The notes under the pieces are model-generated. The model saw nothing but the letters and a program-made list of their open reading frames with translations. It ran no database searches and was not told where the DNA came from. Position numbers and translations under genes: made by a program. DNA of 64,000 bases from Nonomuraea polychroma (GTDB lineage Bacteria; Actinomycetota; Actinomycetes; Streptosporangiales; Streptosporangiaceae), in the NCBI RefSeq assembly GCF_004011505.1, contig NZ_SAUN01000001.1:9885501-9949500 (forward strand). The letters are read 5' to 3'. The first letter of the stretch is position 1, and each line of letters begins with the position of its first letter. Shown one piece after another: positions 20,230 to 26,481 of the stretch.

Positions 20230-20318
20230 TTCTTCTGAAACGGGACCGGCTCTACCCCCCCGGAGCCGGACCGATCAGGCGACCCCCGCTCTCCCCCCCG
20301 GCGGGGGTCGCCCCTTTT
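20230..20318 (+). ncRNA. 6C small RNA (twin C-loop hairpins)
   Basis: Two successive hairpins each carry seven cytosines in the loop. The first is CCGGCTC (20246-20252) with GAGCCGG (20263-20269). The second is GGCGACCCCCGC (20278-20289) with GCGGGGGTCGCC (20301-20312), followed by CCTTTT, which would act as terminator. This is the hallmark of the 6C RNA family of high-GC Gram-positives (Rfam), whose mycobacterial member lies beside the ssd gene Rv3660c, exactly the context here. C-rich loops are thought to pair with G-rich translation starts. The 5' end is approximate. Confidence 0.87.
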
Positions 20319-20520
20319 CCGGCCCGTGCCGTCCTTCCCCGCCGTCCAGGCAGTCCCAGATGGGCAGGGCGGCCGTTCGGTCGGGCTCCTGGATCCGGTG
20401 GTCGTCCACAGCCGCGACACCATTGGCGCCGGCTGTCCCCAGAACGTCGTTCGCCTTCTCGCCGCCGCCGCCACCTGCCACATGCTGTCCCTCCCATCGA
20501 AACGGGAGGCCGACACCGAC

Positions 20521-21564
20521 ATGCACCGCCCCCTCGTCATCACCGAGGACCACGCCCTACTGGACGACCTGGTCCGCATCGCGGCCGCGGCCGGCGCGCA
20601 ACTCGACGTGGCCCACGTCCCGGCCCACGCCCGCCCCTACTGGAACCTCGCCCCGCTCATAGCGGTGGGCGCCGACCAGGCGGACGCCGTGGCCGCCTCG
20701 TCGCCTCCCGCCCGGGACCAGGTCCTCCTCGTCACCCGCGACGTCGAGGACCCGGACACCTGGCGAAAATGCGTCGCAGTAGGCGCCCAAGCCGTCGTGA
20801 CCCTCCCCGCCGACGAACGCCACCTGGTGGAGCGATTCGCGGACGCCATGGAGCCGGAGCCGCGCTCCGGAGCGGTGATCTGCATGATCGGCGGCCGAGG
20901 GGGAGTGGGCGCGAGTGTCCTGTCAGCCTGCCTCGCTCTTCACGCATCCGGCAGTGGCCACCTCCGTACGCTCCTGGTGGACGCCGACCCCCTGGGTGGC
21001 GGCATGGACGCGCTGCTGGGCCACGAGGAGGCGTCGGGCGCGCGCTGGGGAGACCTGGTGGCCCGGGAGGGCCGGATCGGCAGCGTGGCCCTGCAGGCGG
21101 CGTTGCCGTCGTTCGGCGACCTGGCAGTCCTGTCCTTCCACAGGGGCGAGGCGGCCGCGATCCCGGCCCAGGCCATGCGATCGGTCCTCGAATCCGGCCA
21201 GAGAGGCTTCGACCTGGTGGTCGTGGACCTCCCCCGCCGGCTCGACCCGGCAGCCGTCGAGGCGCTCTCCAGGGCCAATGCCACCCTCCTCGTGGCGGCT
21301 GCCGACGTACGCGGCATCCTCTCCGCGGTCCAAGTCCTGTGCGAGGCCCGCAAGCACACCTCGGACCTTCGCGCGATCCTCCGCCCCGGCGTGGTGGACG
21401 ACGATCTGGCCGTGGCATCGCTGGGCATCCCGTGTGCGGGCACCCTCCCCGACCAGCCAAGACTGACCGCCACCCTCAATCGCGGCGAGCTGCCGAAACT
21501 GGGCCCGCGCACCGTCCTGGGCGGCCTGTGCGCATCCCTCCTCCGCGACGTCCTGCCGTCGTGA
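20521..21564 (+). CDS. ssd: Septum site-determining protein Ssd (TadZ/MinD-like)
   Basis: A 347-residue protein from ATG 20521 with GGGAGG upstream. The N-terminal 110 residues resemble a divergent receiver-like domain. The C-terminal part is a MinD/ParA-like domain with IGGRGGVGASVLSACLA as P-loop, LLVDADPLGGGMD and DLVVVDLPRR. The Walker A ends GGVGAS, lacking the usual catalytic Lys before Ser/Thr, so ATP hydrolysis is doubtful. It heads the tad cluster, where TadZ proteins localise the pilus machine; the mycobacterial homologue affects septum formation. Confidence 0.87.
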   Translation: MHRPLVITEDHALLDDLVRIAAAAGAQLDVAHVPAHARPYWNLAPLIAVGADQADAVAASSPPARDQVLLVTRDVEDPDTWRKCVAVGAQAVVTLPADERHLVERFADAMEPEPRSGAVICMIGGRGGVGASVLSACLALHASGSGHLRTLLVDADPLGGGMDALLGHEEASGARWGDLVAREGRIGSVALQAALPSFGDLAVLSFHRGEAAAIPAQAMRSVLESGQRGFDLVVVDLPRRLDPAAVEALSRANATLLVAAADVRGILSAVQVLCEARKHTSDLRAILRPGVVDDDLAVASLGIPCAGTLPDQPRLTATLNRGELPKLGPRTVLGGLCASLLRDVLPS

Positions 21565-21691: not shown

Positions 21692-22915
21692 ATGCCTTCG
21701 CCGGCCAGGCAACCGGCTGTCTCCTCCTCCCCTTCCGAGCCGACGTGCGCCGTGTCCCCGGAGTTGGTGGAGGCCGTCCGCGTACGCCTGGCCCGCACCG
21801 GCGCCGAGCCCAGCGCCGCCCAGGTCGCCGTCGCTCTCAGAGCCGAGAAGGCCGTGTACGGCGACGCGGAGATCCTCGCCGTCGCCCGGGCCCTGTGCGC
21901 GGACCTGATAGGCGCGGGCCCTCTGGAGCCGCTCCTGGCTCGGCCCGATGTTACGGACGTCCTGGTCAACGGCCCTCGCGAGGTGTGGATCGACGACGGC
22001 GGCGGCCTGAGCCGCACGTCGGTCACCTTCGCCGACGACCCGGCAGTCCGCAGGCTGGCCCAGCGCTTGGCGGCCGCCGCGGGCAGACGACTGGACGACG
22101 CCTCCCCCTACGTGGACGCCAGGCTCGCGGGCGGCGTACGCCTCCACGCCGTTCTCCCGCCCGTCGCCCCCGGCGGCACGTGCGTGTCACTACGTCTCCC
22201 GCCGCGCCGCACGTTCACCCTGGCGGATCTGGTGTCAGCCGGCACGATCACCCCTTCCGCGATGCCCGTGCTGACCGCCGTGGTGGCCGCCCGGCTGGCC
22301 TTCCTCGTGACCGGCGGCACCGGAACAGGCAAGACGACGCTGCTGTCGGCCCTGCTCTCGCTTGCCGACCCCGGCGAACGGCTTCTCCTGGTAGAGGACT
22401 CGGCCGAGCTCCGACCGCTGCACCCGCACGTGGTACGCCTGGAGACCCGCCCGGCGAACCTGGAGGGTGCGGGCGGTGTGGGCCTGCGTGACCTGGTACG
22501 GCAGGCCTTGCGGATGCGTCCGGACCGTTTGGTGGTCGGTGAGGTGCGTGGCTCCGAGGTGGTGGACCTGCTGGCCGCGCTCAACACCGGCCATGAAGGA
22601 GGCTGTGGCACGCTGCACGCGAACACGGCGGCGGACGTCCCACCCCGGCTGGAGGCGCTGGGCTGCGCGGCCGGGTTGAGCAGGGAAGCGGTGCACAGCC
22701 AGTTGTCCGCGGCTCTCGACGCCGTCATCCACCTGACCCGCGATCGCCGGGACGGCCGAAGACGCATCGCCGAGATCTGCCTGCTCTCCAGAACGCCGGC
22801 AGGTTTCGTCGAGGCGCTCCCCGCGCTGACCTTCGACATGAAGGGCGACTCCCGGATCGGACCGGGTTACGACGCCCTCACCAAGGCCGTGCAGCAGGAC
22901 ACCCGCTCCCGATGA
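21692..22915 (+). CDS. tadA: TadA family pilus/secretion ATPase
   Basis: A hexameric-type secretion ATPase of 407 residues. It has Walker A GGTGTGKTTLL, the Asp box LLLVEDSAEL, Walker B region RPDRLVVGEVRGSEV and His box GHEGGCGTLHANT. It powers Flp pilus assembly with TadB/TadC. ATG 21692 is distant from the ribosome site AGGAGG at about 21660; CTG 21674, in frame and 8 bases from that site, is a likely alternative start, adding six residues. Confidence 0.93.
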   Translation: MPSPARQPAVSSSPSEPTCAVSPELVEAVRVRLARTGAEPSAAQVAVALRAEKAVYGDAEILAVARALCADLIGAGPLEPLLARPDVTDVLVNGPREVWIDDGGGLSRTSVTFADDPAVRRLAQRLAAAAGRRLDDASPYVDARLAGGVRLHAVLPPVAPGGTCVSLRLPPRRTFTLADLVSAGTITPSAMPVLTAVVAARLAFLVTGGTGTGKTTLLSALLSLADPGERLLLVEDSAELRPLHPHVVRLETRPANLEGAGGVGLRDLVRQALRMRPDRLVVGEVRGSEVVDLLAALNTGHEGGCGTLHANTAADVPPRLEALGCAAGLSREAVHSQLSAALDAVIHLTRDRRDGRRRIAEICLLSRTPAGFVEALPALTFDMKGDSRIGPGYDALTKAVQQDTRSR

Positions 22916-23000: not shown

Positions 23001-23717
23001 ATGGTGACAGACGCCGCCGTGGTGGTCGCCGCGTTGTCCACAGCCAGCGCACTGTGGTTGTGGACAGGCCCGACCACCGCCACGACCCGCCTTGCCAAAC
23101 TGACCGCAGACCACCGCGAGCCCCGGTGGCGGTCCCTGCCCGGGCTGTTCACCCGGCAGAGTCCGGGACGCCGAGCCCAAGCCTGGCGCCTGGCATCGAT
23201 CGAGCTGTGCCAGGCGCTCTCCGCCGAGTTGTCCGCAGGCCGCACCCCGGGAGAGGCGCTGACCAGAGCCGTGGCGGCAGTCGACTTCCCCGACCCCGCG
23301 GCCCTACGTCCGATCGTCGCGGCCGCCAGAGACGGCGGCGACGTTGCCGCGGCTCTGCTCGCCTCGGCCCCACCGCAGGGCGGCGAGGGCCTGCGCCAGC
23401 TCGCCGCGTGCTGGGACGTGAGCGTCACGGTGGGCGCGGGCCTGGCGGCCCTGGTCGAGCGCGTAGCGAGCACGTTACGCGCGGCTCAGGCGCACCGTCA
23501 GGACGTCGCGGCACAACTGGCAGGGCCCCGCACCACGGCCAGGATGCTCGCCGCACTTCCCGCCCTCGGCCTCCTCATGGCCGCTGCCCTGAACATGCAC
23601 CCTCTGGACTTCCTGCTCGGCAGCCTCCCCGGCTTCGCCTGCCTGGTGACGGGAATCATCCTCGACGCCTGTGGCCTGTGGTGGACCAGCCGAATGGCCG
23701 CCCGAGCACAAGGCTGA
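23001..23717 (+). CDS. tadB: TadB-like type II secretion F domain protein
   Basis: A 238-residue membrane protein. There is one N-terminal membrane segment, then a GspF-type cytoplasmic domain (ELCQALSAELSAGRTPGEALTRAV, later GLAALVERVASTLRAAQAHRQDV and AQLAGPRTTARMLAALPALGL), then two C-terminal membrane segments. With TadC it forms the inner-membrane platform for pilus assembly. It lies 85 bases after tadA. Confidence 0.85.
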   Translation: MVTDAAVVVAALSTASALWLWTGPTTATTRLAKLTADHREPRWRSLPGLFTRQSPGRRAQAWRLASIELCQALSAELSAGRTPGEALTRAVAAVDFPDPAALRPIVAAARDGGDVAAALLASAPPQGGEGLRQLAACWDVSVTVGAGLAALVERVASTLRAAQAHRQDVAAQLAGPRTTARMLAALPALGLLMAAALNMHPLDFLLGSLPGFACLVTGIILDACGLWWTSRMAARAQG

Positions 23718-23729
23718 AGGATCTTGCCG

Positions 23730-24596
23730 ATGCTCCTGCTCCTGCTCCTGCTCCTGCTGTCCGCCCTGTGCGCCGGCATGGCCACGTGGTTGTGGCTCTC
23801 ACCAAGGACACCGCGCGAACGGCTGGCCCGGCTGTGCCCTCCGCAGGAGGACGCTCGTAGCCGTACCGTCCCTCTGTCACCGGCTTCCTCCTCGCACCAA
23901 GCCCCCCGCACCCCTCCCGGCCAACCCACCCCTACACCCAACATCGAGCAACCTCACCCGAGCTGGCTCGATCCCACCCATGACCAGGCACGACCGATCA
24001 CCCGCAAGACGCTCATCACCGCCACCTGCGCTGGGCTGGCGACCGCCGCGCTGATCGGCGGCACGATCGGCATCCTGGCCGGCCTCCTGATCACTCCCGC
24101 CACCGGGATTTACCTCCACAGGAGGAAACCTGCGCAGTCCCAGCACGAGCACGAACGAATCGCCGCCGATCTGCCGTTCGCCGCTGACCTGATGACCGCC
24201 TGCCTGCTCGCCGGACGCCCGGTGAGCGCCGCCACCGAGATCGCCGCCAACGCGATCGGTGGCCCACTGGGCGAGCGGCTCACCTGGGTGAGCAGCCAGC
24301 TACGCCTGGGCGCCGACCCCGAGCCCACCTGGGCCGTCCTTGCCAAGGACCCCGCACTGGGCCGGCTCTCCCGGGCCATGACCCGAGCAGCTCAGAGCGG
24401 CGCCCCAGTAGCGGATGTCCTGACCCGCCTGGCCGACGACGCCCGGGAGGCCGCCCGAGCCGCATCCGTCGCCTCGGCCCGGCGCGTCGGCGTCAAGGCG
24501 GTAGCGCCCTTGGGCCTGTGCTTTCTGCCGGCGTTCGTCCTCCTCGGCATCATCCCCGTGATAGCCGGCCTCGCCTCCACGATCGTCCTCCCCTAG
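23730..24596 (+). CDS. tadC: TadC-like type II secretion F domain protein
   Basis: A 288-residue membrane protein from ATG 23730 with GAAGGAT upstream. It starts with an almost pure leucine segment encoded by tandem CTCCTG hexanucleotides (23733-23757), followed by a Pro/Ser-rich loop, two membrane segments around residue 100, a GspF-like domain (DLPFAADLMTACLLAGRPVSAA, RLTWVSSQLRLGADP) and a C-terminal membrane pair. It starts 12 bases after tadB. Confidence 0.85.
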   Translation: MLLLLLLLLLSALCAGMATWLWLSPRTPRERLARLCPPQEDARSRTVPLSPASSSHQAPRTPPGQPTPTPNIEQPHPSWLDPTHDQARPITRKTLITATCAGLATAALIGGTIGILAGLLITPATGIYLHRRKPAQSQHEHERIAADLPFAADLMTACLLAGRPVSAATEIAANAIGGPLGERLTWVSSQLRLGADPEPTWAVLAKDPALGRLSRAMTRAAQSGAPVADVLTRLADDAREAARAASVASARRVGVKAVAPLGLCFLPAFVLLGIIPVIAGLASTIVLP

Positions 24597-24714
24597 CGGC
24601 TGTTCCTCGTTCATCCACAGAACGCCGCTCGGCCCATCGAACCCGACCTCATCTCGGCGAACCTAGGTCTCCCGCCGGACCAGACTCCGGCTCCACCGAG
24701 CACCTGGAGGCACG

Positions 24715-25191
24715 ATGCACAGTCCCGCCACCACGCCAGACACCATCAGCGCCATCCCAGTAGCGCCCCCAACCACAACGTCGCAGCACAGCGCGGCAGC
24801 CCGCAAGGCGCATCCCGGCAAGACGGACCCGACCTCGAGCGCTCCCACGCCCACCCTGCACTCGGAGACAACCGCACCCCGCAACGCCGCAAAAGCGGTC
24901 CCCACAGCTCATGAGCCCGCAAGTGACATCGAGCCGGAGTCCAAGCGTGATCCCGCGCCTGCCGTTTCCGAGGACCACGGTGCATCCCGAGGCTCGCGAC
25001 GGCGGCGGCCTAACAGGTGGCTGCACCATGCGGCTGCCAACCGCGAGCGAGGCATGTCCACAGCGGAGTACGCGGTAGGCACCATCGCGGCGTGCGCGTT
25101 CGCCGCACTCCTTTTCAAGGTGGTGAGCAGCCCGGAGGTCCAGGAAATGTTGTCGTCCCTCATCGACCGCGCTCTCAACACGAACGGGTGA
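24715..25191 (+). CDS. Flp-type pilin (DUF4244) with long N-terminal leader
   Basis: A 158-residue prepilin. ATG 24715 has GGAGG 5 bases upstream, which supports the long form. Residues 1-113 form a Pro/Thr/Ser-rich, then strongly basic, leader (RGSRRRRPNRW). It is followed by G113 and MSTAEYAVGTIAACAFAALL, the prepilin-peptidase pattern with Glu at +5 and Tyr at +6. The mature pilin would have 45 residues. DUF4244 pilins usually have leaders of roughly 20-30 residues. An internal start near the basic patch cannot be excluded. No prepilin peptidase gene is in the window. Confidence 0.85.
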   Translation: MHSPATTPDTISAIPVAPPTTTSQHSAAARKAHPGKTDPTSSAPTPTLHSETTAPRNAAKAVPTAHEPASDIEPESKRDPAPAVSEDHGASRGSRRRRPNRWLHHAAANRERGMSTAEYAVGTIAACAFAALLFKVVSSPEVQEMLSSLIDRALNTNG

Positions 25192-25607
25192 CCCTCCGCC
25201 CCGTGCAGGTCATACGCGCGACGCAGGGCCTGGGGCTCGCGCGAACCGCCGTGGCGGACGGTCGGCGGCGGGCATCGCGCGGCTCGGTGACGGCCGAGAC
25301 CGCTGCGATGTTGCCGGCGCTCATGGTCGTCCTGGCGGCCGCGCTATGGGCCATCCAGGCCGTAGGCGCCCAATTGGAATGCGTGGACGCGGCCCGGGCG
25401 GCGGCCCGTGCCGCCGCGCGAGGCGAGCCGCTGGACCAGGTTCGCGACGTCGCTCGCTCAGCCACACGCCCAGACGCTCAAGTAGCCGTGACCCGTGACC
25501 CAGAGACCACAAAAGTGCAGATCACAGTACGAGTGCGACCAGCATGGGGATCCTCGCTGCCGGCAGTACGCGTATCCGCCTCGGCCACCGCCGACACCGA
25601 ACCATGA
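25188..25607 (+). CDS. TadE-like minor pilin
   Basis: Up to 139 residues from GTG 25188, which overlaps the pilin stop (GTGA); GTG 25203 is also possible. The core RGSVTAETAAMLPALMVVLAAALW is a class IV signal with one membrane helix, followed by the CVDAARAAARAAARGE helix common to TadE. The C-terminal part is a small extracytoplasmic domain. It is probably a minor pilin or assembly factor co-translated with the Flp pilin. Confidence 0.85.
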   Translation: MTLRPVQVIRATQGLGLARTAVADGRRRASRGSVTAETAAMLPALMVVLAAALWAIQAVGAQLECVDAARAAARAAARGEPLDQVRDVARSATRPDAQVAVTRDPETTKVQITVRVRPAWGSSLPAVRVSASATADTEP

Positions 25608-25953: not shown

Positions 25954-26481
25954 ATGAGCCATGGAGCCGGGAGACATCGATCCACCGTCCGGCGTCTCCG
26001 GCGGGTTCGACTGTCCTATGACGACGTCGCGGCATTTGATCCGTCACGGCTCCATGGCCTCCGCCCTCAGCACCGGCAAGGGGAGGTAGCGATCCGTTCC
26101 AGGGAACGAGGGTCAGCGACGCTATGGGGCGTGGCCCTCATGGGACTCCTGATGGCCGTCGCCACAGCGTTCGCCACGGTGGGCGCCGTGCGCGTGGCGC
26201 GCCATCGCGTCAACACCGCCGCTGATCTGAGTGCCTTGGCTGCCGCCAGGCTGGCACTGTTCGATCCACAAGGCGCGTGCGCCGAAGCTGCTGCATTGGC
26301 CACTCAGAACGGCGTCGAGCTGACCGGATGCGAGATCAACGATGAGGTGGCCGACGTCTGGACCTCGTTGTCGATCTCGTTGCCGATAGTCGGCACACGC
26401 ACCGTGACCGGCAGATCGCGAGCGGGCCCGGCAGGGGCGGAAGGGGGCAGCGCGGATGCCGCCCTTCGGCATCCGCGCTGA
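25954..26481 (+). CDS. Rv3654c-like TadE-family protein
   Basis: A protein of up to 175 residues. The conserved part starts at RERGSATLWGVALMGLLMAVATAF, a class IV-type membrane segment, followed by RVARHRVNTAADLSALAAARLAL, the pattern of the helicase/secretion neighbourhood TadE-like family. Two Cys residues (GACAEA and TGCEI) may pair. The start is uncertain: ATG 25954 lies in low-complexity, repeat-derived sequence and the native start may be closer to the conserved part (about 26090). Confidence 0.72.
   Translation: MSHGAGRHRSTVRRLRRVRLSYDDVAAFDPSRLHGLRPQHRQGEVAIRSRERGSATLWGVALMGLLMAVATAFATVGAVRVARHRVNTAADLSALAAARLALFDPQGACAEAAALATQNGVELTGCEINDEVADVWTSLSISLPIVGTRTVTGRSRAGPAGAEGGSADAALRHPR

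Follow-up and report, generated by a model that had tools for sequence, protein, structure and literature searches.

Competence pili and the Nonomuraea locus

In the ComK and ComX/SigX regulons, one cis element stands ahead of the pilus, DNA-import, dprA and ssb genes. Flp pilins of the DUF4244 kind typically carry a short leader of about 20–30 residues, although this length is not strictly defining. Among the Actinobacteria, Flp pili are required for natural transformation in Micrococcus luteus (PMC4322843). The sections of that paper used here give no operator for the M. luteus competence regulon, and a 2026 paper, in the part cited here, describes this regulon as currently unknown and its upstream signals as unidentified (PMC12849477). 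In Rhodoluna lacicola, the com genes other than comEA go up together with the tad genes in darkness, according to the cited part of PMC8591293.

The locus analyzed in this study lies in a 64-kb stretch of Nonomuraea DNA, the whole of which is called the window. As in the ComK and ComX/SigX regulons, the same set of genes was found behind one element; the sequence of the Nonomuraea box differs, and a Tad pilus replaces the Com pilus. The locus resembles that of M. luteus in its Flp-type pilin, its Gly/XXXXEY processing site and the presence of tad and com genes, whereas the prepilins differ in size, with 77 residues in all in M. luteus and 158 residues, including a leader of 113, in Nonomuraea (PMC4322843). 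The gene order was tadZ, tadA, tadB, tadC, the pilin gene and the genes of two TadE-like proteins. The features, numbered from the first letter of the window, are as follows.

20240–20316, + strand: 6C RNA upstream of tadZ (RF01066, 60 bits, gathering cut-off 47)
20432–20456, + strand: second copy of the conserved box, ahead of tadZ, 25.8 bits (pattern search and matrix)
20521–21564, + strand: tadZ/CpaE-like ATPase (ParA-type Pfam matches)
21692–22915, + strand: tadA (PF00437, 5.2e-58)
23001–23717, + strand: tadB (PF00482)
23724–24596, + strand: tadC (PF00482)
24610–24634, + strand: conserved box ahead of the pilin gene, 38.8 bits (upstream alignment and matrix)
24674–24691, + strand: putative hairpin GCCGGA-N6-TCCGGC, lying between the box and the ribosome site (stem search; weak)
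24706–24710, + strand: GGAGG ribosome site, 4 nt ahead of the ATG (conserved in 50 of 52)
24715–25191, + strand: Flp/DUF4244 prepilin gene, 158 aa (open frame; PF14029, 1.7e-24; orthologous starts in 52 of 54 genomes)
24715–24759, + strand: first 15 codons, all three codon positions conserved in MHSPA-type pilins (codon-position comparison)
24715–25053, + strand: leader of 113 codons, predicted to be disordered (start analysis, composition, AlphaFold2)
24979–25053, + strand: last 25 leader codons, an Arg-rich juxtamembrane stretch with final residues NRERG (composition, AlphaFold2)
25054–25191, + strand: mature pilin of 45 aa and stop codon (open frame, PF14029; dN/dS 0.09)
25188–25607, + strand: TadE-like minor pilin, its start overlapping the pilin stop (PF07811, 7.5e-4, below cut-off; start from sequence)
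26098–26481, + strand: TadE/G-like protein, start approximate (PF13400, 2.1e-8)

The pilin gene and its start codon

PF14029 (DUF4244) matched residues 105–155 of the pilin with 85.4 bits against a cut-off of 27. The match aligned 51 of the 54 model positions, and the leader fell wholly outside the model. As read from the sequence, the cleavage site is Gly113|Met114-Ser-Thr-Ala-Glu, which gives a leader of 113 residues. The class III signal is complete, with Gly before the cut, Glu at position +5 of the mature part and a hydrophobic helix at residues 116–137. Upstream of the cleavage site the frame stays open over 128 codons. It offers two possible starts: ATG 24715, and an ATG that immediately follows the cleavage Gly and would give a protein with no leader at all. 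No in-frame ATG, GTG or TTG was found between ATG 24715 and the cleavage site. The sequence-only reading had placed translation at ATG 24715 behind a good ribosome site, with a leader far longer than usual. Both statements were borne out, as GGAGG stands at a spacing of 4 nt before the sole in-frame ATG, GTG or TTG ahead of the cut, and 113 residues compare with the usual 20–30 or so. A start near 25000, which had been named as the opposing case, would need a codon other than ATG, GTG or TTG there.

A DUF4244 match was present in all 54 Nonomuraea genomes examined, and in 52 of them an in-frame start preceded by a Shine–Dalgarno (SD) sequence was found upstream of the cleavage site. The leader set leaves out one genome whose contig begins inside the pilin gene (G035) and one whose pilin gene is interrupted by an insertion (G047). 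GGAGG lies 4–5 nt ahead of the start in 50 of the 52 pilins, and the other two (L023 and L048) carry GGAG only. Wherever enough sequence is available upstream, as it is in 51 genomes, the ATG follows the box by 96–107 nt at any leader length. Because this distance is nearly constant, the start is anchored independently of the reading frame.

Length, composition and constraint of the leader

The Nonomuraea leaders ranged from 32 to 232 aa with a median of 95 (n = 52); 32 of them had at least 87 aa and 20 had at most 68 aa. One pilin (L014) had candidate leaders of 268 and 95 aa, and the latter was picked by hand because its start reads MHSPATTPD. Outside Nonomuraea, SD-called leaders of at least 60 aa were found in 28 of 81 pilins, including those of other Streptosporangiaceae, and the longest, 348 aa by an SD-based start call, belongs to Acrocarpospora. 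The design had been put forward as a pilin with no described parallel; long leaders are in fact common and not unique to this gene, as they occur across Nonomuraea and, by SD-based start calls, in other Streptosporangiaceae. Orthologues without conservation of leader length or composition had been named as a refutation, and the outcome is divided: across the 52 genomes the length of the leader is not conserved (32–232 aa), whereas in the leaders of at least 60 aa the composition is, with a Pro/Thr/Ser/Ala middle and an Arg-rich end.

On a TadA tree, the leader lengths of nearest relatives differed by a mean of 17.5 aa, compared with 47.0 aa after shuffling (lowest of 2000 shuffles, 28.5). The tree holds 52 genomes, 50 of them with leader lengths; G002 (below the match threshold) and G028 (split gene) were left out. 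In one group of the tree, with a bootstrap of 41, all 27 measured members had leaders of at least 87 aa. Because relatives have similar lengths and the group is uniform in this respect, the length of the leader may be under selection instead of drifting freely.

In the 39 leaders of at least 60 aa, Pro, Thr, Ser and Ala make up 56.8% of the pooled middle, which is near neutral, and Arg makes up 22.6% of the last 25 residues. This agrees with the earlier description of a Pro/Thr/Ser-rich stretch followed by an Arg-rich one. The pilin frame had 0 stops in 2930 codons of these leader middles, while the two remaining forward frames had 49 and 38, and the zero arises partly by construction because starts were sought within the open frame. 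AlphaFold2, run with a 27-sequence alignment, gave a model with a mean pLDDT of 59.9 that has no secondary structure in residues 1–99 and predicted helices at 100–110 (before the cut), 116–137 and 140–156. The dN/dS was 0.60 in the first 15 codons, 0.76 in the middle, 0.52 in the last 25 codons and 0.09 in the mature pilin, from 21 independent species pairs that include distant ones with poorly aligning leader middles. The suggestion of a chaperone-like domain was not sustained by the predicted lack of structure in residues 1–99 or by a dN/dS of 0.76 in the middle compared with 0.09 in the mature pilin, and on the AlphaFold2 result the leader was ruled out as a folded domain. A paralogous family was also ruled out, as the query (P0001) had one real match in the genome and the next had an E value of 0.07 or worse.

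The start of the leader behaved differently at the nucleotide level. In 27 non-redundant MHSPA-type sequences, agreement with the consensus at codon positions 1, 2 and 3 was 0.91, 0.93 and 0.88 in codons 2–6, compared with 0.95, 0.99 and 0.72 in the mature part. The modal codon share was 0.93 at the 5 conserved first residues, 0.71 at 34 mature residues and 0.66 at 8 juxtamembrane residues. Since the codons and not only the residues are conserved, the constraint may act partly or wholly on the nucleic acid; a targeting role of the conserved first 15 or so residues is also possible. The start region of TadE, used as a control, had no third-position relaxation either (0.83, 0.67 and 0.75, then 0.75, 0.74 and 0.87; n = 22), at a lower overall agreement. 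Nucleotide constraint around starts may therefore be general, and the case for a trait of the pilin alone is weakened. Between the box and the ribosome site, the best stem ends 17–28 nt ahead of the ATG in 43 of 51 upstream regions, and the best stems at −41 to −24 averaged 16.2, against 12.5 (sd 4.0) in shuffles. RNAalifold on alignment A1 did not recover this hairpin and gave 4 other pairs with zero covariation. At the gathering level, no known RNA family was found at the pilin; the only one was 6C ahead of tadZ.

A leader that is probably disordered and removed by the prepilin peptidase

Release of the leader as a peptide, which had been offered as one possible purpose, is a general consequence of prepilin cleavage. 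The genome has a single A24 prepilin peptidase match (PF01478, 6.6e-13). In the cited part of PMC10191384, leaders of class III signal peptides remain in the cytoplasm and are cleaved there, and for this reason leader length need not matter for export. The type IVb pilins with longer leaders described in the same source share the class III signal peptide and a variable leader length with the pilin studied here; the Nonomuraea leader differs in varying several-fold within one genus and in being rich in Pro, Thr, Ser and Ala (PMC10191384). The leader belongs to a known kind of prepilin leader, of which it is an extreme form with hypervariable length. By structure prediction and composition, it is most likely a disordered cytoplasmic pre-segment that is taken off by the single A24 peptidase of the genome.

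The prepilin would be inserted in the membrane with its leader on the cytoplasmic side. The A24 peptidase would cut the disordered tail after Gly113, and the 45-residue pilin would then be assembled. The middle would need no particular sequence, and its length could for that reason become hypervariable through slippage and drift. The start would be held by the needs of initiation, with codons conserved as nucleotides, and the basic end by the needs of topology and peptidase recognition. In Blastococcus sp. TF02-8 (L157), the leader consists mostly of a tandem ATTQP repeat, which points to slippage. The leader of TadE (25188–25283, + strand) is also variable, with 10–73 residues in the 43 of 52 genomes that have an overlapping start and 19 residues in 27 of these.

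Two other explanations of the leader were weighed. The leader could be an annotation artefact, with the pilin initiating at a rare codon near 25000, and the weak codon constraint of its middle would fit. We regard this as highly improbable, considering that in-frame ATG, GTG and TTG are absent near 25000, that the SD-ATG is spaced constantly from the box in every one of 51 genomes, and that it is in frame in all 52 usable genomes across many leader lengths. A long leader could instead have a selected function. It might act as an entropic spacer of tuned length or a solubility tail, holding back insertion or premature assembly, or else serve as a docking tail. The 27 long leaders in one group of the tree, kept despite turnover of the middle, favor this idea, as do the N-terminal motif, found by regular expression in 29 of 52, and the long leaders of other genera. 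Nevertheless, congeners manage with leaders of at most 68 aa in 20 of 52 genomes, and the supporting group has a bootstrap of only 41. We hold such a function to be possible but unlikely, and it is the principal alternative for the leader. The docking-tail version, in which the N-terminal motif MHSPATTPDDI binds a part of the machine, is rated just as tentatively, and the motif is also conserved at synonymous sites, beyond the need of a protein motif alone. We prefer to see the leader as a disordered segment with a free middle.

A conserved box upstream of the pilin gene

About 100 nt before the pilin ATG lies a box of 25 nt with the consensus CTTATCCACAGAACGCCGCTCGGCC. Its core TCCMCAGARC was found in 50 of 51 pilin upstream regions; one locus (L036) was left out of the set because it has too little upstream sequence. 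The box contains a GAAC-N3-GTTC palindrome, whose spacer measures 3 nt in the ssb, yraN and comEA sites inspected. TCCACA recurs 29–33 nt upstream of the box in 114 of 136 sites, compared with 4 of 136 on the opposite strand in the same interval. The pilin box of the window itself has no second TCCACA upstream.

In the 64-kb window, the pilin and tadZ sites alone reach 10 bits, and in 311,686 bases searched on both strands no second matrix site of at least 14 bits was found. A search of the whole window genome with at most 2 mismatches gave 17 sites, compared with 1 for the reversed pattern; the same search gave 13 against 3 in G034 and 12 against 3 in G006. Beyond Nonomuraea, 47 of 82 pilin upstream regions, a set that includes the truncated L024, scored at least 14 bits. 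More distant pilins (Klenkia, Geodermatophilus, Blastococcus and Nanopelagicales) have a TCCACAGA-like core near −100 and did not score with the full matrix. No published description of the box was found in the open-licence PMC literature, where the literal string TTATCCACAGAAC was also unmatched.

The box at competence genes

ComEA, ComEC, DprA and SSB are all encoded in the window genome. The ComEA protein has SLBB and HHH domains, comEC lies just downstream of comEA, and the SSB-type genes were recognized by domain. yraN is followed by comM and then by a frame with DprA (PF02481, 1.7e-63). Besides those at the pilin gene and tadZ, matches to the pattern in the genome precede comEA, the operon of yraN and comM, and two genes of the SSB type.

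A matrix built from the 51 pilin sites only was tested at ssb, yraN and comEA across the genus, with 30 loci for each gene, taken from sets of 52, 53 and 54 matching genomes. The box was present in 30/30 ssb loci, about 100 nt upstream, in 29/30 yraN-comM-dprA loci and in 26/30 comEA-comEC loci, together 85 of 90 independent loci. At each of the five misses (L284, L292, L296, L297 and L332), the contig breaks off inside the gene or immediately ahead of it. By comparison, 60 column-permuted matrices found at most 5 of 90 loci, with a mean of 0.3. The spacing between the box and the comEA start was 61–62 nt in all 21 loci with a placeable start. The tadZ box was present in the three genomes checked.

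Because the same box stands at pilus, DNA-import, DNA-processing and ssb genes, the pilin gene is probably part of a natural-competence regulon whose operator is newly recognized. The sequence-only reading of the pilin gene had seen the start and the leader correctly and had missed the conserved box and the link to competence. The common box suggests that DNA uptake in this group is turned on by a shared switch: one regulator would bind it and switch on the pilus, DNA import and DNA processing together. Such an operator would cover the genes of the Tad pilus and its pilin with the long leader, those of ComEA-ComEC and YraN-ComM-DprA, and those of dedicated SSBs. Overall, we believe with good confidence that the product of 24715–25191 is the major prepilin of a Tad (Flp) pilus, most likely for DNA uptake, that its gene is run by the box as part of a regulon, and that it carries a disordered leader with a free middle.

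With at most 2 mismatches, the box also precedes genes with no known role in competence, such as a DUF4192 gene in two of three genomes. In all three genomes looked at, it lies 40 nt ahead of a conserved MTAP-like phosphorylase gene (L181, L256 and L269), and a box-like site lies 129–132 nt ahead of a family 4 glycosyltransferase gene (L180, L257 and L262).

Candidate regulators and meaning

Actinobacterial LexA binds a GAAC-N4-GTTC palindrome. The box could be such an SOS operator, so that the pilus and com genes would be induced with repair in a DNA-damage regulon; it does carry GAAC-N3-GTTC, and SSB, DprA and ComM all handle DNA. We consider this improbable, because the spacer in the inspected sites is 3 nt instead of the 4 nt of that palindrome, and because the palindrome leaves out much of what is conserved, namely TTATCCACAG and its repeat some 31 nt upstream. 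DnaA is a somewhat better candidate, though still a doubtful one. TTATCCACA is identical to the DnaA-box consensus, two copies stand about 31 bp apart in most sites, and the TCCACAGA-like core recurs near −100 in the Klenkia, Geodermatophilus, Blastococcus and Nanopelagicales pilins; if these repeats are DnaA boxes, competence would be coupled to the replication state. Boxes of the TTATCCACA type match in the pilin and ssb sites, whereas most comEA and yraN sites have TCCCCA variants, and the GAAC-N3-GTTCGG half is not explained by DnaA. In M. luteus, a mutation study points, in the part cited here, to an HTH_17 DNA-binding protein beside the RcpC/CpaB gene (PMC8467076), and this protein is one regulator candidate among several. 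An initial idea that the box is read by a sigma factor was set aside.

We lean towards a true competence regulon in Streptosporangiaceae of mycelial growth and large genome size, with an operator made of a direct repeat of TTATCCACA and GAAC-N3-GTTC. Within the same reading, the TCCACAGA core may extend to distant Actinobacteria, and the DnaA-box form may tie uptake to replication. The regulon result weighs more than the leader result. For the control of competence in Actinobacteria, a defined operator that precedes the entire uptake pathway offers a bait for the regulator and a reporter basis for finding inducing conditions. It also lists candidate new competence genes, namely those of the MTAP-like phosphorylase, the glycosyltransferase, DUF4192 and a second SSB. 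Natural transformability of these antibiotic producers, if real, would bear on the spread of their large genomes and biosynthetic clusters and on engineering them. The leader, for its part, is a clean natural experiment on the content that a prepilin leader requires.

Variable N-termini and mobile elements

Other putative proteins of the regulon may also carry variable N-terminal parts. ComEA ranged from 281 to 484 aa in length (20 measured; L280–L309), and in the window genome the DprA domain begins 340 residues into the open frame (L371:1877–3904, + strand).

Mobile elements were found in some of the pilus and competence genes, and they may have been selected for blocking DNA uptake. In G028, tadA is split at the Walker A codons by an element of roughly 13 kb that encodes a serine recombinase and a primase of the D5 type (L373, G028:C30:99300–113900). 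In G047, the pilin gene and yraN are each split by an element of roughly 8–9 kb with a phage-type integrase (PF00589); the interrupted loci are L252 (G047:C43:1500–16500) and L372 (G047:C1:81900–90400).
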